A stretch of DNA of 64,000 nt from Brachypterus glaber. Taxonomy: Eukaryota > Arthropoda > Insecta > Coleoptera > Kateretidae. Under the pieces are notes generated by a model. The model made no database searches and was not told where the DNA came from. It saw only the letters and a list, made by a program, of their open reading frames with translations. Position numbers and translations under genes: made by a program. The stretch's first letter is position 1, and the number at the start of each line of letters is the position of its first letter. The stretch spans positions 81,266,895-81,330,894 of the forward strand of contig OY294044.1 of assembly GCA_958510825.1 (NCBI GenBank). The letters run 5' to 3'. This document shows positions 53,390 to 63,762 of this stretch, piece by piece.

Positions 53390-54335
53390 AGCACTGGTGA
53401 AGTTTGGGACAAAATTTGGCCTGCGATGCTTTTCTTGTTTTGTAGCGAGTTTTCCATATAGCCTTCCGCTACTGTACTGGACTTCCATCCACCGTGTCTT
53501 TTAATTGTAGTAAGATTAGCATCAGAATCTGCCAACAGCCGAATATCGTCGAAAGCAATGTCCAGTATAAAGGTGAGAATCAGGCAAATTTAGAAATTCA
53601 GCAATATTGGCATCTTACAAAACGTGTTAATTCCAACTGGAGTCGTGGCACGTTTATTCTTATTGTATTTTATGAAAATTCTTGAATGATTAGTGTTCTC
53701 TGGACGAAGGGCTATGTACTTTTTATAATACATAGTTCAAATATAATGAACATTCGTTGCACATTAGTTTTTGTGTCTGGTATATGCACAACTAGTGAAA
53801 TTCCTAAATCTTTGATATTATTCAATGTCAAGTTGCATAGTGCTTCGCTATGACAGGCTCCAAATACACCAAAAATTACGGCAACCTTCTGCATGAGATA
53901 TTTTTCATACTGCGCTTCTGCTAGAAATTTGTCGATTTGTTCCCTGGTCAACTTTCAACTTTTTTGGTCGATATTCTTCGCCCTTTCGCTTCAAAAAAGC
54001 AACAAGCTTGTAATATTTGCTTATGTCCTGATTGTTTATGTTCAACATCGCCTTCAACATGGAATAATTTGACCAAAGCGTTGACGATTTCCATATTTTG
54101 GACTTTTCTTCAAAGTATGCCAAAAGCACTGTTTCACTGAACTTGCCACTAACATTTTTCAGATCGCACCATCTCAAGAAACGATTGTACGAAAACTCGT
54201 GCCCTTGCTTTGACTTACTAGGCAATAACTCAAAAGTGGCTTTATTAGCAGCTTCTTCGATTTCCGCAGGGAGAAATTCATTTTCTTCATCACTTTCCAT
54301 GTCACGAGATTTGAAGTTACTTGTCAACAAAAGTC
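53390..54335 (-). pseudogene. Tyrosine recombinase (Crypton-like), broken
   Basis: On the minus strand the N-terminal SAM-like DNA-binding half is intact (54330-53905: words FSYNRFLRWCDLKNVSGKF, YFEEKSKIWKSSTLWSNYSM, YYKLVAFLKRKGEEYRPKK). A shifted frame (53951-53712) follows with LTLNNIKDLGISLVVHIPDTKTNVQR. Then a C-terminal piece near 53520-53400 contains LADSDANLTTIKRHGGWKSS and TVAEGYMENS. The catalytic box I region reads GACHSEALCNL, where an Arg is expected, the H-x-x-R part is not visible, and box II with the terminal Tyr remains. This matches proteins widespread in insect genomes related to Crypton transposons. It is inactive. Confidence 0.75.
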
Positions 54336-54886
54336 AAACTTTCATTACCTTAGCAACAATAAATTTTATGGACAACTGAATTTCAAAATGAAATTTTATA
54401 ATGTAAGATGCTTTGCGTTGATTTGTACTTTTAATAGTGTTTGTGGAAACAATAGTGTATGATATGTGTACTGAAAGTGATTTTATTTTATTCTAAGGGA
54501 TGGGACACTGCCTTCGGCGTCGTGTCTTAAACTTCCCTTCTCAAAAAATAAATTTAGCACTTATAAGTAAATAACTATTTTAAAACGGCATGCAACAAAA
54601 AACTTTTTTAACAGCCCTACTCTACCCTAATGTATATTCGGTTCTTATGCATGAATGGTCAAACATATTTACTTTGAGACAACTTTTACTTTTACCTTTA
54701 TATTAAAAATACAAATGTTAGCATTTTTTTTTCACGAAATAATTTCTTTGGAATGTTAATGGAAAATACACAGCACTAGCACTGCGTTCCAACTGAGTTA
54801 ACGAAAATTTGGATAAACTGAGCCTGATACATCATACTACAGAATAATGTTTTAGAATTAAAAAAAATATATATATATATATATAT
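54336..54886. repeat. Dispersed repeat copy and (AT)n run
   Basis: 54700-54835 matches 29300-29445 in order (AATAATTTCTTTGGAATGTT, GCACTGCGTTCC, GATAAACTGAGCCTGATACA). 54866-54886 is an AT run at the edge of the next element. Confidence 0.6.
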
Positions 54887-57519
54887 GAGGCATTCTTTCT
54901 GAACGAGCGACCCCCACTTAGCCAAAATTGGTGAGGTCCATTTGAGGTGTATAATGGCTCAAATAAAAGGTCTTGAAATCTACTTTCTAAATCTTAGTGG
55001 CCCTTACACTAAATCACTATAGGAGATCCAATATGGCCGCTAGAACCACGTGACCTTCACCACTTTTATTACTTAAACGACTATAAAACCACTCGCATGA
55101 ATCCGATTGAGGCCAAAAAGGGCCGAAATGAAAGTTCTTGAACTTTGCTTTCGAAAGCTGTGTGGTAAAAAATTTTTTGTTCACAAAAAGTCCAAAACCA
55201 CGTGGCTTTGGCGTTTTTACTTCAAAACATCAAAGAAATAAACTGTGGGGATTTTTGGGGTCGCTGATCATAAATCCAAAGTCAAATTTTTAAAATTCAA
55301 GATGGCGGATCCAATATGGCCGATGAGATTTTCCAAAATGAACCGATTCACGAAAAATTTGGTATGTGGGGGTTTTTGGCGTCACTGATCACGTATCCGA
55401 AATCAGATTTGTAAAATTCAAGATGGCGGATCCAATATGGCGGATGAGATTTTTTAAAACGAACCGATTCACGCCAAATTTGGTATGTGGGTGTTTTGGG
55501 GCCGCTAATTACGAATCTGAACGCAGATTTGTGAAATTTAATATGGCGGATCCAACAAGGCGAACGTTATTTTCAAAAATAAACCGATTTGCGCAAAATT
55601 TGACTTGTTAGGGTTTTTAAGGTCACTGATCACGTATTCGAAGTCAGATTTGTAAAATTCTAGATGGCGGGTCCATGTCACTTTGACATGTAGGCCATCT
55701 TTGGTTTTGTTGATTTTCAATTGTCATTATGTCCCTACATACCAATCTTCAAATCACTACGATAATCCAATCAAAATTTATAATAAGCATTTTTTCTAAA
55801 AATGACGGCTCGCTGCGCTCGCGGGAACGGCTAGTGTTTTTTGATTAAATTCTGTTTAAATATACACCATAAGCTTATATTTCAAATTTTAAGTCTCTGT
55901 GTCAATCCGATCAAAAGATATTAAGAAAACAAAAGGAAATCATGATGTGATTGTTTTGAACTGTAAGGCTAGCATTTTTTGGAATTTTTGTGTATGTGTT
56001 ATCTTTAAATAGTAACCATAAGCTTATATTTCAAATTTTAAGTCTCTACGTCAATTCGATGAAAATTTATTAAGGAAACAAAAATAAAAAAATATTTGGA
56101 CTTCACGGCTAGTATTTTTTTACTCTTAAACTATCCGATATAAAATATATACAATTAGCTTATATATCAAGTTTCAAGTCGATAGCTCATCCCGTTCAAA
56201 AGTGTAGAATCGCTTTGTTTTGCAAATATATAATAATAAATTCTGTTCTTCTTTAATGGCTGACTATTAATCGAACATTAAAATCTTCTCGAATTTTCTT
56301 CAATTGAATCTAAACAGTATTTTTTTTATACCACATTGGCTCAGAAACGTAATTTTAATTTTAATTTAAATAACTTCTGTTAGCCGACTTTAGCAAGTAG
56401 CAAGCGCTTATAAACCTGAATGGGACTCGAAGTTCTTTTACTAATTTTAAGAAAAAAATGCACCTATTCACGTGTTTTCGGTAGCCATTTTGTTTCTATT
56501 AAATTCAAGGCAGAGTTCTAGTAGAGAACGATATCTTTTATTTCAGCCTTTGACAACCTCAGTGAGACTCAAACAGTTCGTTTCTTTAATGTCTTGACGC
56601 AAAAACGCTAGAGATCCGAAGTCAAATTTGTAAAATTCAAGATGGCGGATTCAATATGGCGGACGAGATGTTCAAAAATAAACCTATTTATTACAAATTT
56701 GGTAAGTGAGGGTTTTTGAGGTTGTTGATTCAGAATCCGAAGTTAGTTTTGAAAAATTCAATATGAAGGATTCAATTTGGTGTACCAATTTTTGGAAACT
56801 TAACCGATTCTGCTAAAATTTTATTGACAGTCGTTTTTGAAGTCATGTTCATTACGTTATAACCCCATAACCCCAAATACCAAATTTGGCGTGAATCGGT
56901 TCATTTAAAAAAATCTGATCCGCCATATTGGATCCGCCATCTTGAATTTTACAAATCTGATTTCAGATACGTGATCGGAGACCCCAAAAACCCCCACATA
57001 CCAAATTTCGCGTGAATCGGTTTATTTTGGAAAATCTCATCGGCCATATTGGATCCGCCATCTTCAATTTTAAAAATTTGACTTTGGATTTATGATCAGC
57101 GACCCCAAAAATCCCCACACACCTACATAGACATCAATAAGAGTCAAACAGTTTATTTGTTTGATGTTTTGACGTAAAAACGCCAAAGCCACGTGGTTTT
57201 GGAGGCCATATTGGATTTTACGTGAACAAAAAAAATTTTACCACACAGCTTTCGAAAGCAAAGTTCAAGAACTTTCATTTCGGTCCTTTTTGGCCTCAAT
57301 CGGATTCATGCGAGTGGTTTTATAGTCGTTTAAGTAATAAAAGTGGTGAAGGTCACGTGGTTCTAGCGGCCATATTGGATCTCCTATAGTGATTTAGTGT
57401 AAGGGCCACTAAGATTTAGAAAGTAGATTTCAAGACCTTTTATTTGAGCCATTATAGACCTCAAATGGACCTCACCAATTTTGGCTAAGTGGGGGTCGCT
57501 CGTTCAGACAGAATGCCTC
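54887..57519. mobile_element. 2.6 kb foldback element, GAGGCATTCTKTCTGAACGA ends
   Basis: GAGGCATTCTTTCTGAACGAGCGACCCCC at the left is matched by its complement at the right (57491-57519), and the arms pair for several hundred bases (ATGGCTCAAATAAAAGGTCTTG, AGGAGATCCAATATGGCCGC). Inside, a 120-bp unit (GATGGCGGATCCAATATGGC, AACCGATTCACGCCAAATTTGG, GATCACGTATCCGAAATCAG) is tandem in the left arm (about 55245-55680) and recurs inverted in the right arm (56870-57110). Alternating AT lies on both flanks. No transposase. Confidence 0.85.
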
Positions 57520-57538
57520 ATATATATATATATATATA
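57520..57538. repeat. (AT)n between foldback and LTR
   Basis: 19 bp of alternating AT, directly followed by the LTR. Gypsy-type errantiviruses are known to insert in such sequence. Confidence 0.85.
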
Positions 57539-57786
57539 AGTTAACGACCTTCAGTCACTCACCTTTATTATATTAAATATCATTTCTGCTTATTATAATT
57601 TATAAACATTTCTTTATTAGGAAATAGCTTTGTAAGCATTTCACCTCAGATACCTAAAATGTATATTCCAAAACTTCAGTCTGTACTTAGCTTTGATCAA
57701 TAAACGAACTTGTATTTTTCTATCTAAATAAATTAATAAATTTATTTCCTTTTTAAAAACCTAACTTCGGGAACTCGGTAGATAAT
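57539..57786 (+). repeat. Probable 5' LTR
   Basis: It begins AGTTAACGACC directly after the AT run and ends GGTAGATAAT just before the primer-binding site, about 248 bp. AATAAA (57699-57704) is a candidate polyadenylation signal. AGTTAAC starts and short LTRs are usual for gypsy-type elements. The 3' copy is not in the window, so the exact ends are unconfirmed. Confidence 0.7.
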
Positions 57787-57801
57787 TGGCGCAGTCGGTA
57801 T
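57787..57801 (+). promoter_or_regulatory. Candidate primer-binding site (tRNA-Ser type)
   Basis: TGGCGCAGTCGGTAT starts immediately after the LTR. It resembles the complement of an insect tRNA-Ser 3' end used by several gypsy-group elements. The assignment is from memory. Confidence 0.7.
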
Positions 57802-57971: not shown

Positions 57972-58178
57972 ATGTTTTTTAGAGGTCCCAGACAAGAAAT
58001 TTCAAGCTCAAGTTCTAGCTCAAGTGCAGGCTCAGAATTAGATTTAGAACAAACCCTAATTGATAACTTTAGTTTAGAAATTTTAAATTCATTTGAAAAC
58101 CTTAATATTAACGATATGGCTACAGGAAACGAACCTGTTGTACCCGTCCTTAAACATTTGATAATGATTCTGAAATGA
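57972..58178 (+). CDS. Short serine-rich leader ORF overlapping the USP start
   Basis: 68 codons. An eight-serine run (residues 11-18) is followed by an acidic segment (GSELDLEQTLIDNFSLEIL). I recognise no domain. Its TGA stop overlaps the USP ATG as ATGA (58175-58178), with the USP in the -1 frame. That geometry allows termination-reinitiation, or marks an old frame change that split one longer N-terminal region from the USP. It may be a remnant of a gag or host N-terminus. There is no close upstream competitor ATG after the donor-like site. Confidence 0.4.
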   Translation: MFFRGPRQEISSSSSSSSAGSELDLEQTLIDNFSLEILNSFENLNINDMATGNEPVVPVLKHLIMILK

Positions 58179-59329
58179 ACGATGATAAATTATACAACAC
58201 CAACAACAGTTTAAATTACAGTGATATTGATGATAACAGCGAGAAAAACTATATCACAAACAATAAGCCAGAGGTCGGAAGTCCAGTCAAAACTCTGGGT
58301 CTTAAAGGGTTAAAAAATATCGGGAATACCTGTTTCATGAACTCGGTCATTACATGCCTTTCGAACACGAAACTTTTGTTGGAATACTTAAAGAAGGACA
58401 GCTATATGCAGGACATCAACACCAATATATCAAGTATGCATGGAGCTTTAATTAAGACATTTGCCGATGTGATAAAACAGTTGTGGTCAGAAGATTCATC
58501 TGAACGGGTAGTAAACACGGTTTCTTTCAAGAGCCAAATCCAGATTTTCGCCCCCCAATTTACAGACTACAAACAACAGGACGCACAAGAATTTCTGCGG
58601 TACCTTTTAGAGGGACTTCACGAGGACGTTAACAGGGTAACGGAAAAACCTAAACCTATTTTTACCAAAATAGATGAAAAATTAACTGATAATGAAAAAT
58701 CTGCCGAATCATGGTCCAGATACCTCCGGATGGACGACTCTCGCATTTTGGACCTCTTCGTCGGACAACTGAAATCCACCCTCAAATGCACCTATTGCAG
58801 CCATTGTTCCGTCACATTCGAACCATTCTGGGACATTTCTCTCTCTCTTCCACAACACACTGGTCAATTAAGTTTATCACATTGTTTGGAATCCTTCACA
58901 CGGGAAGAATCGTTGGACGGTGATGAAAAACCTACATGTTCAAAATGCAAAAAGCGCAGAAAATGCACAAAATTCTTTAGAATTCAAAAATTCCCAAAAA
59001 TATTAGTAATTCACCTTAAACGCTTCTCCCCGATGACACAGTTTCAAAGTAAGCTCAAAGTCACCGTAGAATTCCCCCTAGAAGAATTAGATATGAGCAA
59101 TTATGCAGCAGAGTCCGTTGCACCCTCCAAATACAACTTATACGCCATTTCAAATCACAGTGGTACCACGTATAGCGGACACTACACCGCCTATTGTAAA
59201 CATCCCTATAATCATACGTGGCACGAATACAACGACTCTAGGGTATCTTCAATTTCACCAACATCCATCGTATCATGGAATGCTTACATATTATTGTACG
59301 AACAAGAAAGTCAAAAATCATATACTTGA
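58175..59329 (+). CDS. Ubiquitin-specific protease (USP2/USP21-like) inside a retrotransposon
   Basis: 384-aa cysteine protease of the USP family (peptidase C19), predicted to cleave ubiquitin from proteins. Residues 1-40 are a low-complexity, Asn/Asp-rich tail. The Cys box is GLKNIGNTCFMNS with the nucleophile Cys53. QQDAQEFLRYLLEGLH follows at 134-149, and DLFVGQLKSTLKCTYC at 193-208. Zinc-ribbon cysteines are Cys205/208 and Cys255/258. The His box is NHSGTTYSGHYTAYC with His336, and the third catalytic position is in EYNDS (Asn353/Asp354). The catalytic core is full length (about 340 aa), has no stops or introns, and looks closest to the USP2/USP8/USP21 group. It lies between the primer-binding site and gag of an errantivirus-like element. 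The start at 58175 is the first ATG of the frame. Alternative: a processed host gene that landed in the leader. Confidence 0.92.
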   Translation: MNDDKLYNTNNSLNYSDIDDNSEKNYITNNKPEVGSPVKTLGLKGLKNIGNTCFMNSVITCLSNTKLLLEYLKKDSYMQDINTNISSMHGALIKTFADVIKQLWSEDSSERVVNTVSFKSQIQIFAPQFTDYKQQDAQEFLRYLLEGLHEDVNRVTEKPKPIFTKIDEKLTDNEKSAESWSRYLRMDDSRILDLFVGQLKSTLKCTYCSHCSVTFEPFWDISLSLPQHTGQLSLSHCLESFTREESLDGDEKPTCSKCKKRRKCTKFFRIQKFPKILVIHLKRFSPMTQFQSKLKVTVEFPLEELDMSNYAAESVAPSKYNLYAISNHSGTTYSGHYTAYCKHPYNHTWHEYNDSRVSSISPTSIVSWNAYILLYEQESQKSYT

Positions 59330-59437
59330 GTTTATTTATTTCTTTTTTTTTACTTATTTGTTACTATTATTTGTTACTTGATTGTTAATTATTTTTTTTA
59401 ATTAATATGTATATTTCTATTAAAAAAAAAAAAAATT
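59330..59437 (+). other. AT-rich spacer ending in A14
   Basis: 108 bp from the USP stop to the gag ATG, T-rich and then AATTAATATGTATATTT and 14 consecutive A (59422-59435), two bases before ATG. The A run looks like a reverse-transcribed poly(A) tail of a captured USP mRNA. That is inference. Confidence 0.5.
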
Positions 59438-60460
59438 ATGGACTATATTAATATGATCCCAGATTTTCGGGGAGAAACAGAGCTTCTCCCTAGATTCATA
59501 GAAATCTGCGAAAAACTCGTAAACAAATTTTATAATACGACAGACCCGACAGACTTTCAAAACGAATATCTTATGTCAAGTATAATTTCCAAAATAAAAG
59601 GCGATGCAGCAATAAAAATATCTGCTTGCATAGTAAGTACTTGGGACGACCTTAAAATAGCTTTAACTAACACTTATTCAGATAAACGTGATGTGTTTAG
59701 TTTAAGCATAGAGATGACTGACCAACGACAACAATTTTCGGAATCTGTCTTTGATTTTTATCACCGAATTATTATGTACCTCAATTTACAAATAGCGTTT
59801 TTAAATATCCATGGGGATGATAATGAAAAACCTATAATAACAGGATATCTGCGAAAATACGCATTAAGAGTTCTACTAAGGGGCCTACGAGAACCTATAG
59901 GATCCTTAATGCGGACGAAAAATCCTGATGATTTAAATTCTGCACTTAATATGCTAACTAATGATTTTCAATTTGTTACGGAAAATCCTCGGGAAAATCA
60001 TAGACAGATCCCGCAGAGAAATTTTAGAAATCCAAAAAGTCCAAATCGTTACCCCCCACAAACAACAAGGCCCCTACAAATAACAAATTTTGCCCATAAT
60101 GCTAGGCAAAACTTTAATCCCAACCAAAATTTCCAAAATCAAAATAAGAATTTTTCTAATCAACCCGGCTCTGGTTCAAAAAATATGAATGTTTTTAAAC
60201 CTAACCCTAACCAGCCGTTGCCTAAACCAACGCCAATGAGTGTATCTACTCGAAATACACATAGAACAAATAATTATTTTAGACAAAATTTAACTCAAAA
60301 CAGCCCTAACTATACGGTAGAAGAGTTGTTCACTTTGCAAAACGAACCTATGGTGGAATTTCCCCCAGAAAATTTTAACGTACATTTGGGAAAATCAAAT
60401 AAAACTCCGGAAAATGAAAATTCGGAAATTTTTTTAGGAAATCTAGCCTCGGAAAATTAG
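59438..60460 (+). CDS. Gag-like protein of an errantivirus-type element
   Basis: 340 aa. The N-terminal two-thirds is a helical capsid-like domain (IPDFRGETELLPRFIEICE, ISACIVSTWDDLKIALTNTY, VFDFYHRIIMYLNLQIAF, RVLLRGLREPIGSLMRTKNP). The C-terminal third (about residues 185-300) is rich in Asn, Gln, Pro and Arg and probably binds RNA. There is no CCHC zinc knuckle, as is common in errantiviral Gag. It would assemble particles that package the element's RNA. The frame ends at TAG 60458-60460, and the pol frame (-1) is open over this end from about 60440. No internal stop, so this ORF may still be functional. Confidence 0.85.
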   Translation: MDYINMIPDFRGETELLPRFIEICEKLVNKFYNTTDPTDFQNEYLMSSIISKIKGDAAIKISACIVSTWDDLKIALTNTYSDKRDVFSLSIEMTDQRQQFSESVFDFYHRIIMYLNLQIAFLNIHGDDNEKPIITGYLRKYALRVLLRGLREPIGSLMRTKNPDDLNSALNMLTNDFQFVTENPRENHRQIPQRNFRNPKSPNRYPPQTTRPLQITNFAHNARQNFNPNQNFQNQNKNFSNQPGSGSKNMNVFKPNPNQPLPKPTPMSVSTRNTHRTNNYFRQNLTQNSPNYTVEELFTLQNEPMVEFPPENFNVHLGKSNKTPENENSEIFLGNLASEN

Positions 60461-60474
60461 AAAAAATTAATTTA

Positions 60475-62160
60475 ATGAGCCTAACGGACTCTAAAAGTGA
60501 GCTATCATATGTTATTTTTCCCGAACATAATTTAAAAGTTCTGATCGATAACGGTGCCACGAAAAGTTTCGTTAAGCCCGAAATTGCAAAAAGATTTTTT
60601 TCAGAAAATATAATCGATGATCCTTTTTTAATTTCTAGTGCTCATGGAAGTTCTTTGGAAAAGCATAGTACAAAGATCCCAAATTTTTACGGCAAAGAAT
60701 TAAAATTTCATCTATTTAATTTTCATAAAAATTTCGATATTCTCTTAGGTCTAGATAACCTTAGGAAACTTAATGCGGTAATTGACTTGTACAATAACGT
60801 ATTAATTACGCCTACACGTAGGATAAAAATTCATTTTTTTAACGTAGCTAATTCTTTGAATTGCATTGAAGTCCCGTCAGGGACGGAACAAATAATTAAA
60901 TTAAAAATTAAAAATATTAAAGAGGGCGATGTTTTCATCCCTTACACGAAAATTAACGGTCTGGAAATACCAGAATGCGTTTGTAACGTAAAAAATTTTA
61001 CTACAAACTGTAGTATTGTAAATCGTAGCGAAAAAAATATTTCTTTTGATTCCGATATTTCTATTGGGGTGGAAGAGTTCAACGAATATGAACACCGCCC
61101 TTGTGAAAATTTTAATAACTTTATGTTCCAAAAAGGCTCGTTTGATTTTTCTTCTTTACGCATGAACCACATGAATGCGGAAGAAAAACAAGCCATTTTA
61201 AATTTAATTAAGGAATATAGCGATTTAATTTATATTGAAGGGGATGTACTAACTTATACGGGTAAAGTTAAGCACCACATTCGAACTACAGATGAAATTC
61301 CTGTTTATTCGAAAACCTATAGATATCCCGAAATACATAGAAAAGAGGTGCGTAAACAAATAAATAGCCTTCTTAAACAAAAAATTATACGCCCCTCTTA
61401 CAGTCCGTGGAGTTCTCCAATATGGGTAGTTCCAAAAAAACCTGATGCTAGTGGGGAACCTAGATGGCGTATTGTTATCGACTATCGAAAGGTCAATGAT
61501 AAAACCATAGGGGATAAATACCCAATTCCTAATATTACCGACCTTTTGGATAAGTTGGGACGCTGTCTTTACTTCACTACATTAGATTTGGCATCCGGAT
61601 TTCATCAGATAGAAATGGCACCTGAAGATATAGAGAAAACTGCTTTTTCTACTGAAGGTGGCCACTTCGAATTTCTTAGAATGCCATTTGGCCTAAAATC
61701 GGCACCAACCACGCTCCAACGCGCAATGGACACCCTGCTACGCGGTATACTCAATAAATTTTGCCTGGTGTACCTGGATGACATAATAGTCTTTAGCTCC
61801 AGCTTACAGGAGCATCTGGACCACTTGAGACAAGTCTTTCAAAGATTACGCAATGCAAATTTTAAATTACAAATTAATAAATGCGATTTTCTAAAAAGGG
61901 AGATATCTTTTCTTGGACATATAGTTACCCCAGAAAGCGTAAAACCAAACCCCGATAAAATAAAAGCAATTGAAAATTACCCGATCCCCAAGACTCAAAA
62001 AGAAATCAAAGCATTTTTAGGATTGCTAGGCTACTACAGAAAATTTATAAAAGACTTCGCTAAAATAACGAAACCTTTTACTAACTGTTTAAAAAAGGGT
62101 AACAAAGTTAACGTAAACGACCCAGATTATATTAAATGTTTTAATTTGTGCAAAACATAA
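60475..62160 (+). CDS. pol: Pol, part 1: aspartic protease and reverse transcriptase
   Basis: 561 codons, in the -1 frame relative to gag. The first ATG is 60475, but the frame is open upstream across the gag stop, consistent with ribosomal frameshifting. A retropepsin-like motif LIDNGATKSFV (Asp25) has Asn where Thr or Ser is usual, and ILLGLDNL (about residue 89) corresponds to the second conserved block. The RT domain covers about residues 270-470: SPWSSPIWVVPKK, WRIVIDYRKVN, LDLASGFHQIEM (Asp371), FEFLRMPFGLKSAP, LVYLDDIIVFSSS (Asp435/436). The RT thumb/connection has FLGLLGYYRKFIKDFA. It ends at a TAA (62158-62160), after which the same frame continues with RNase H, so this is a premature stop and not the natural end. 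Confidence 0.92.
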   Translation: MSLTDSKSELSYVIFPEHNLKVLIDNGATKSFVKPEIAKRFFSENIIDDPFLISSAHGSSLEKHSTKIPNFYGKELKFHLFNFHKNFDILLGLDNLRKLNAVIDLYNNVLITPTRRIKIHFFNVANSLNCIEVPSGTEQIIKLKIKNIKEGDVFIPYTKINGLEIPECVCNVKNFTTNCSIVNRSEKNISFDSDISIGVEEFNEYEHRPCENFNNFMFQKGSFDFSSLRMNHMNAEEKQAILNLIKEYSDLIYIEGDVLTYTGKVKHHIRTTDEIPVYSKTYRYPEIHRKEVRKQINSLLKQKIIRPSYSPWSSPIWVVPKKPDASGEPRWRIVIDYRKVNDKTIGDKYPIPNITDLLDKLGRCLYFTTLDLASGFHQIEMAPEDIEKTAFSTEGGHFEFLRMPFGLKSAPTTLQRAMDTLLRGILNKFCLVYLDDIIVFSSSLQEHLDHLRQVFQRLRNANFKLQINKCDFLKREISFLGHIVTPESVKPNPDKIKAIENYPIPKTQKEIKAFLGLLGYYRKFIKDFAKITKPFTNCLKKGNKVNVNDPDYIKCFNLCKT

Positions 62161-63762
62161 TTGACAAATGAACCTATTTTGCAATATCCTGACTTCACTA
62201 AGCCTTTCGTTCTTAGTACTGATTCCAGTAGTTTCGCAATTGGTTCGGTCCTTTCGCAGCAGGTAGCTGGAAAAGATCTGCCAATAGCTTACGCCAGCAG
62301 AACTCTCAATGTTGCAGAGACTAAATACAGCACAATCCAAAGGGAACTTTTGGCTGTAGTTTGGGCCGTGAAATACTTTCGCCCCTATCTGTATGGCAGA
62401 CGCTTTAAAATTTTGACAGATCATAAACCACTCCAATGGCTCTTTTCTCTAAAAGAACCGGACTCAAAACTCACAAGATGGCGCTTAAAACTTGAAGAAT
62501 ACGACTATGAAGTCAGCTACAAAAAAGGTTCATTAAACACAAATGCAGACGCACTTAGCAGAGTTGAAATTAATAATTTAGAGTCGTACTCCCAAATTAT
62601 AGAGCAACACCCAGTCATTAGTAAAATAATTAAAAATAACATGTCTGTCGAAAACCCAAATGTTACAACTTTGCAAGATAACCTATTTAACTGTAACGAA
62701 AATATTTCACTAGCACACTGTGTTTCAGAATGCCTAACGATGAGTAAAGGCATAGCCCTAGATTTTAGGAAAAAGTTTAATCATATTAATACGCTAAAAA
62801 CCCAAAATAAAAAAATAGGAGAGGTGGCTTATCTAAGATACCCCAAAAGAAATATTTATTATCTTATTACTAAGGGCACTTTTAGGGATAAACCCACCTA
62901 TACCTCCGTTATTGTAGCACTAATAAGTCTGAAAAAACTTTGTCTAGATTTTAACGATAACATTATAGCAATGCCTAAAATAGCATCCGGTCTTGACAAA
63001 CTAGACTGGAACATAGTATTTAATTTAATAAAATTAATTTTTAAAAATTCTGAAATTAAAATTTTAATCTACGACACTGACATTTCAAAAACTCATAAAA
63101 TAGCTAACACCTTAGACAAACTGTCTAGCGTAGAAATAAACGTAACAAACGATAACGCCCTAGAGAATTACATGGAAAAATTTTATCAGAAACTAAATAA
63201 CGAAAACAAAGATAAGGATCATATTACCGCAGATAATATGTCTCTTATAGTTGAACCCGGTGACCATGAAAATACGATACACAGTTCAACAAAATTAAAA
63301 CCCTCAGAAATTTTGACAGGTCATTTAGAAACAAATTCCCCTTTTAGTTTAGAATTAGATAAACAAATTATGAATAATTATATTTTAAGTCACAAAGAAA
63401 AAGTTAAGTTACTATACCAAAAAATTAATGAAGGACTTCAAAAATCTAAAGAAAAAGTTATTAATAAGTGTAACGAAAACAGGGAAGATTTGCCCCAAAT
63501 CCCTGACAAAGTTTTTGTTAAAAATAAGCAAAGACAAAGTAAAACAAAAAATAAATATAAACCAGAAAAAATTAGAAGTCTTGACCCTGATCTTAAAACG
63601 GCCAAAATTACCCCAACCCACCACAATACTGTAGAAAAAATTCACCTCTCAAATATTAAAAGACCTAGGAAAAAACCCTATAACTTTAGAAATTTGACGG
63701 ACGAAAAAACTAATAATGAACCCATTCCAGGTCCTTCGCATCTGGATGGACAGCCGACATAA
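62161..63762 (+). CDS. pol: Pol, part 2: RNase H, OARD1-like macro domain, integrase C-terminal remnant
   Basis: 533 codons in the same frame as part 1, separated by a single TAA. RNase H is at residues 1-135 (VLSTDSSSFAIGSVL, QRELLAVVWAVKYFRPYLYG, ILTDHKPL, NTNADALSR; acidic residues Asp21, Glu62, Asp87, Asp130). Residues 171-305 form a macro domain. From about residue 362 the integrase C-terminal part resumes (HENTIHSSTKLKPSEIL, a basic stretch at 440-475, VEKIHLSNIKRP). The HHCC finger and D,D-35-E core expected between RNase H and this part are not visible. Either the macro domain replaced them, or they were deleted next to a macro domain that the family normally carries. Confidence 0.88.
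   Translation: MTNEPILQYPDFTKPFVLSTDSSSFAIGSVLSQQVAGKDLPIAYASRTLNVAETKYSTIQRELLAVVWAVKYFRPYLYGRRFKILTDHKPLQWLFSLKEPDSKLTRWRLKLEEYDYEVSYKKGSLNTNADALSRVEINNLESYSQIIEQHPVISKIIKNNMSVENPNVTTLQDNLFNCNENISLAHCVSECLTMSKGIALDFRKKFNHINTLKTQNKKIGEVAYLRYPKRNIYYLITKGTFRDKPTYTSVIVALISLKKLCLDFNDNIIAMPKIASGLDKLDWNIVFNLIKLIFKNSEIKILIYDTDISKTHKIANTLDKLSSVEINVTNDNALENYMEKFYQKLNNENKDKDHITADNMSLIVEPGDHENTIHSSTKLKPSEILTGHLETNSPFSLELDKQIMNNYILSHKEKVKLLYQKINEGLQKSKEKVINKCNENREDLPQIPDKVFVKNKQRQSKTKNKYKPEKIRSLDPDLKTAKITPTHHNTVEKIHLSNIKRPRKKPYNFRNLTDEKTNNEPIPGPSHLDGQPT
62671..63075 (+). other. Macro domain of the OARD1/TARG1 type within pol
   Basis: About 135 aa: ISLAHCVSECLTMSKGIAL at the start of the fold, FRKKFNHINTLKTQNKKIGE, then NIYYLITKGTF, KPTYTSVIVALISLKK, MPKIASGLDKLDWNIV and EIKILIYD. 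This order is that of OARD1 (TARG1), which hydrolyses ADP-ribose esters and O-acetyl-ADP-ribose. The positions equivalent to the catalytic Lys84 and Asp125 of the human enzyme are kept as Lys238 and Asp279 of pol part 2. The usual GCG before LD is ASG. Its role here could be removing ADP-ribose from element or host proteins; that is inference. Confidence 0.85.

Follow-up and report, generated by a model that had tools for sequence, protein, structure and literature searches.

A predicted USP2-type deubiquitinase at the C-terminus of LINE proteins in the genome of the beetle Brachypterus glaber

R2 elements carry fingers ahead of their reverse transcriptase (RT) and an endonuclease behind it; they end at this endonuclease and insert in rDNA. 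Proteases of the Ulp1-like kind, which occur in certain other LINEs, are of the SUMO type. The nearest precedents for the fusion described below, as far as the accessible parts of the literature tell, are the N-terminal Ulp1-like cysteine proteases of NeSL and Utopia-1_TSP, nematode LINEs with a restriction-like endonuclease (PMC4640811). Three deubiquitinase-like domains are attributed to Helinoto, a Helitron2 element (cited in PMC7599744), and LTR retrotransposons with additional captured ORFs have been presented as well (PMC5408684). The accessible part of PMC6338049, which concerns accessory domains, contains no ubiquitin terms, and no LINE with a ubiquitin-specific protease (USP) is described in the titles and opening lines of abstracts that searches of open-access full texts listed. 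We report here on a predicted USP of the USP2 type that forms the C-terminus of LINE proteins in B. glaber, and of which one copy lies in the window, i.e. the whole stretch of 64,000 nucleotides that was analysed.

The USP reading frame of the window (Table 1) is stop-free over 384 codons according to the ORF listing and its translation, and Pfam recognizes a UCH domain over residues 45–375 of the product (E 8.3e-70). The closest solved structures in PDB are catalytic domains of USP2 (E about 5e-116), and the 20 best relatives in the protein database share 72–78% identity with it, those that bear a species name being USP2 proteins of beetles. Cys53 of the Cys box, His336 of the His box and Asn353 of the Asn/Asp box, which we take to be the catalytic residues, as well as Cys205/208/255/258 of the zinc ribbon, presumably the zinc residues, are invariant across 27 aligned USP2 relatives (24 of them from named arthropods). 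By its UCH domain, its boxes, its zinc-ribbon cysteines and its position in a tree inside insect USP2, the product is a predicted USP2-type deubiquitinase, and the preliminary description of a 384-codon USP ORF with Cys, zinc-ribbon, His and Asn/Asp boxes is borne out by these searches. The protein nearest to the window USP (P0002, from Logan) seems by eye to be without the N-terminal motif that is conserved in other beetle USP2 and could be a diverged copy rather than a normal USP2 gene.

Table 1. Features of the LINE insertion and of the surrounding LTR element (positions in the window).
Feature	Position	Strand	Basis
5' LTR of the LTR element (AGTTAAC...TTTTTAA), within a TA repeat	57539..57756	+	99.5% identical partner of 218 nt
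gag, N-terminal piece, severed by the LINE insertion	57972..58152	+	alignment to the N-termini of Logan gag proteins (MSFRGP...PVLK)
5'-truncated family-A LINE copy inserted in gag	58153..59435	+	family-A loci matching from 58153
USP ORF, equal to the C-terminal 384 aa of the LINE protein (P0242 residues 994-1377)	58175..59329	+	Pfam, PDB and LINE-protein match
LINE 3' untranslated region, common to families A and C	59330..59421	+	comparison of copies
Poly(A) tail, 14 A	59422..59435	+	sequence; L003, L007 and L010 have A-runs of comparable length here
gag, remainder	59438..60460	+	gag alignment; 133 protein-search relatives, 120 of them listed
LTR-element protease and RT, closed by an in-frame stop	60475..62160	+	Pfam RVP_2 and RVT_1; ORF ends
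LTR-element pol continued in the same frame, RNase H	62161..63762	+	Pfam; ORF listing

A search of the genome (648 Mb) for this USP returned at least 111 matches (107 of 720 candidates scored), of which 65 span 94% or more of the USP; 55 of these 65 are stop-free. Stop-free frames of at least 500 aa were found at 40 of the 111 matches listed, and of at least 1250 aa at 10. Besides the place in the window (L001), 35 loci were fetched, which represent 33 distinct places (L002 is identical with L009, and L008 with L012). At 29 of the 33, coding sequence for a LINE RT/endonuclease lies upstream of the USP. The other four comprise L016, with a different gene in this position, and L033, L034 and L035, for which merely ~380–455 bases upstream of the USP were covered. 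At L016 (2349–7265; G000:C10:17370500-17379200) an ankyrin-repeat gene, by eye a channel of the TRP type and split by one stop codon, continues in frame into a USP that is 90% identical to that of the window and is followed by the LINE 3'UTR. Judged from its sequence this locus looks like a template-switch chimera; its in-frame join indicates that other sequences can be attached to the USP/LINE 3' end, which would fit template switching.

The two complete LINE ORFs, of 1371 and 1463 aa, combine in one frame a finger, an RT, a probable endonuclease and the USP. In the family-A protein of 1371 aa (L009), Pfam places a PHD-like finger at residues 31–74 (PHD matches in this family score under the curated Pfam cut-offs), RVT_1 at 346–542 and UCH at 1032–1362. 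The family-D protein of 1463 aa (L020) has RVT_1 at 343–544 and UCH at 1131–1461, with no N-terminal domain by Pfam and with a C2H2-type finger visible by eye in its translated N-terminus. With a PHD-like finger (A) or nothing (D) found N-terminally by Pfam, an N-terminal Ulp1-like protease in the style of NeSL and Utopia was not seen. The RVT_1 matches in the two ORFs have E-values of 4.3e-14 and 7.5e-18, and in PDB the R2 retrotransposon proteins (9nl3, 9dou) are nearest to the LINE RT (E about 3e-6). Between RT and USP, the motifs Cys-x-Cys...His...Cys and RPDG...WDFTC are invariant in four rows from families A, C and D; we take them to be the zinc knuckle and the restriction-like endonuclease of R2/NeSL-type LINEs, and this intervening region is accordingly annotated as a probable zinc knuckle plus restriction-like endonuclease. 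Pfam and PDB searches gave no match for the endonuclease region, and in an AlphaFold model that covers the endonuclease together with the USP (mean pLDDT 57) the endonuclease is poor and only the USP part usable. ORFs of family C also have the USP fused in frame. These comparisons show a LINE with a single ORF that encodes a finger, an RT, a putative endonuclease, a linker and a complete, predicted USP2-type protease at its C-terminus. Its catalytic and zinc residues are retained in L009 (A), L033 (C) and L020 (D), and zinc or Cys-box residues vary in some copies (L018, L019 and L029). Self-processing of the ORF by the USP was considered; LRGG is missing from both LINE ORFs.

The full-length family-D copies L023, L024 and L025 are 99.98–100% identical across ~4.75 kb with differing flanks. 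Among family A, the eight loci that were compared show 98.6–99.9% identity, several of them starting at different points, and complete elements of 4.3–4.8 kb are near-identical at separate loci; short unplaced contigs are the source of L025 and of several A copies, and some of the loci counted could be alternative haplotypes. The hallmarks of LINEs are found: 5' ends vary, the 3' end is common, A-runs occur in several copies and LTRs are absent, as judged from the printed flanks. By inspection, the flanks of 10 LINE copies are unlike one another. An 8-nt direct repeat can be recognized by eye around L024, and none is evident by eye around L023 and L025. Near-identical copies with differing 5' ends point to recent activity accompanied by 5' truncation, and we conclude from this sequence record that the USP-bearing LINE families have been recently mobile.

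Old LINE lineages that carry the predicted USP number at least four (A, B, C and D), and the module proved to be younger than the lineages themselves. At fourfold-degenerate third positions, 59–73% of sites differ between lineages in the RT/endonuclease part, which is saturated, vs. 14–35% in the USP. This silent gap reaches Fisher P-values from 1.1e-2 to 3.8e-13 in nine between-lineage pairs, non-independent since members recur among them; 27–32 sites were scorable for B, and B vs. C was left out. Control pairs within family D show no such gap (L020 vs. L036, P 0.78 on 21 sites; L020 vs. L032, P 0.29 on 12 sites), so that a slow silent evolution of the USP is not a likely cause. In line with this, NG86 estimates of dS for the USP are 0.45–0.51 when A is set against C and D (four comparisons; dN/dS 0.22–0.26), vs. 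2.6 in the RT and 3.1 in the endonuclease between A and D, and identity climbs from ~0.65 to ~0.84 at the border of the USP module. A saturated RT/endonuclease next to a much closer USP means that the module came later than the lineage split; on this silent-site evidence, it must have joined the LINE lineages or moved between them after their RT and endonuclease had separated.

The origin of the module was traced in a tree with 33 USP2 rows (28 from named insects and 5 others, the USP2 gene of this species itself not being among them), in which a single clade (100/99.9) unites the 15 LINE USP rows. This clade is nested among beetle genes, next to two nitidulid beetles, at 94/78, a placement that is not strongly supported. 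Two diverged USP2-like proteins of Leptinotarsa decemlineata (P0045 and P0101) group with Leptinotarsa USP2, outside the LINE clade, and are by this grouping a putative separate USP2 duplication. By eye, the family-D linker resembles the N-terminal disordered stretch of USP2 proteins, suggesting that the capture included some of this stretch as well.

A bolder reading, to which we give somewhat less than an even chance, is that the captured host deubiquitinase became a mobile module in its own right. Once fused to one LINE, it would have reached three or more further old LINE lineages of this genome through template switching, and purifying selection would have kept it in each since deubiquitination in cis would aid retrotransposition. 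The tree and the 3' ends bear directly on another scenario, in which host USP2 mRNA was captured several separate times at LINE 3' ends rather than once with subsequent exchange. We regard it as rather unlikely, even if the absence of the host's own gene from the tree, the differing linkers and the three kinds of 3'UTR (one common to A and C, another in D and another in B, represented by L029) lend it some weight; against it stand the single clade of all 15 LINE USP rows, the five columns (three of which belong to the linker) in which these rows share a state shown by at most 3% of 119 homologue rows, and the fact that A and C have the 3'UTR in common as well as the USP.

Selection on the USP can be seen in the distribution of its changes. 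The window copy differs from the beetle majority (taken from 10 named beetles) at 62 positions, of which 10 fall in the 131 columns that are invariant in 12 named non-beetle arthropods, where 24.3 would be expected (P 1.6e-5); a looser comparison set that includes two weevils and one unnamed row agrees (9 of 62, 23.2 expected, P 1.4e-5). On the other side, dN/dS over the USP ORF between A and B (L029 vs. L009) is 0.37, above the other comparisons of A, and it is 0.83 in the linker between A and D, on 35 codons. The column test and the lower USP values of dN/dS show that the LINE-borne USP has evolved under purifying constraint, part of which may predate the capture. A USP that was merely a passive passenger, acquired by 3' transduction and kept for its good 3' end with no deubiquitinase function, is improbable under these circumstances. 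LINEs do offer a precedent in 3' transduction, and A and C share USP and 3'UTR as a block, but a passenger would hardly be fused in frame in the complete A and D ORFs and in those of family C, show a dN/dS of about 0.25 with substitutions that shun conserved columns, retain its catalytic and zinc residues, and persist in B and D despite their other 3'UTRs.

The window copy itself is incomplete. At 15 family-A loci (13 distinct places) the match to the window begins at exactly 58153, and all 15 have common LINE sequence upstream of the equivalent point that is missing from the window; searching the rest of the window with the family-A and family-D LINE proteins gave no further match. TTA at 58150–58152 and at 59436–59438 might be a 3-nt target duplication, a weak indication noted by eye. 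The common starting point and the poly(A) tail show that the USP of the window represents the 3' end of a polyadenylated, 5'-truncated LINE insertion, placed by alignment within the gag gene of an LTR element. The 3'UTR, rich in T, and the poly(A) had hinted at a host mRNA inserted directly into the LTR element; this was ruled out, since the same UTR trails the USP in the LINE copies.

This LTR element is errantivirus-like, with an LTR pair, gag and protease-RT-RNase H. The partner of its 5' LTR (218 nt, 99.5% identical) lies just past the window end (L037:1402–1619) and also adjoins a TA repeat. A small ORF at 57972–58178 (+) aligns to the N-terminus of gag relatives and the rest of gag follows at 59438–60460; the pieces on either side of the USP align with continuous gag relatives, from which we conclude that the element is interrupted inside a predicted gag. 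Fourteen aligned gag relatives run across the insertion point of the window with no USP, which is weak evidence because relatives were admitted only up to 1.75 times the query length and longer ones could be missed. In pol, an in-frame stop codon is found at 62158–62160, and Pfam detects no integrase within the part of pol in the window. The putative primer site TGGCGCAGTCGGTA at 57787 starts 30 nt past the LTR end as defined by the LTR pair, and by this gap its role as a primer site is unproven. A stretch after the RNase H (62650–63300, IAMPKIASGLDKLDW) looks by eye like a macro domain; Pfam lends this no support. Two inverted repeats of 328 nt (54868–55195 and 57211–57538), 98% complementary and with nested ~121-nt repeats between them, stop exactly at the start of the LTR element and perhaps belong to a foldback-type element. 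An ORF of 141 aa on the minus strand (53905–54330) is by eye like the N-terminal region of tyrosine-recombinase or Crypton-like proteins.

The preliminary description had assigned the USP to the errantivirus-like LTR element, between the primer-binding site and gag. Such a gene of the LTR element would agree with its location between the LTRs and in sense with gag, but it is scarcely credible, as the ORF lies inside gag and splits it, starts and ends as other LINE copies do, with poly(A), and has an LTR leader or gag beside it at none of the 33 other fetched places (some flanks being short); the USP thus occurs without the LTR retrotransposon, an outcome that the description had itself considered as speaking against its proposal. 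Its suggestion that the intact core reflects capture or selection in a retroelement holds as far as purifying constraint is concerned; the element is a LINE and not an LTR retrotransposon. It has next to no probability either that host USP2 gave rise to the copies as processed pseudogenes, dispersed by the machinery of LINEs and linked to them by coincidence, for although the copies are intronless and several have 3' A-runs, the USP has LINE coding sequence ahead of it at 29 of 33 places and the near-identical complete elements at separate loci have the in-frame fusion in common.

The explanation as a whole, in which the LINE-borne USP is shown while its acquisition, its spread by template switching and its activity in cis are inferred, appears to us highly probable. 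A LINE would have gained at its 3' end a host USP2 mRNA, comprising the catalytic domain and part of the disordered N-terminus, presumably when the RT switched templates. From there the module might have spread to other LINE lineages by a similar switch at the 3' end, at which LINE cDNA synthesis starts. With less certainty, the USP, being in cis with the particle of RT and RNA, would most likely take ubiquitin off the LINE protein, or off restriction factors or chromatin at the target site, and this removal of ubiquitin would raise retrotransposition.

A natural LINE protein with its own deubiquitinase raises the question whether ubiquitination limits LINE retrotransposition, which can be tested by a single mutation of a catalytic residue. 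The old split of the RT against the younger split of the USP points to an exchange of domains among LINE lineages (or to repeated capture) at the 3' end, the starting point of reverse transcription. Should the substrate have changed, the candidate residues of the USP are those which the LINE families share and which seldom occur in USP2.

Compared with R2 (PDB 9nl3, 9dou), whose RT is the nearest solved relative, the LINEs of B. glaber likewise appear to have fingers ahead of the RT and a putative endonuclease behind it; unlike R2, they possess a USP and their copies are found at unlike flanks. Helinoto, as cited in the accessible text, is also a mobile element with deubiquitinase-like domains, but it is a DNA transposon, and the elements of PMC5408684 have gained extra coding domains too, but are LTR elements, with deubiquitinases not mentioned in the accessible part of that paper. 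With NeSL and Utopia, as far as they are described in the accessible part of their source, these elements share the single-ORF LINE organization with fingers, RT and a C-terminal zinc finger/endonuclease (putative here), together with a captured protease of a ubiquitin-type pathway. Unlike them, with their N-terminal Ulp1-like protease, the LINEs of this beetle genome carry a predicted USP2-type deubiquitinase at the extreme C-terminus.
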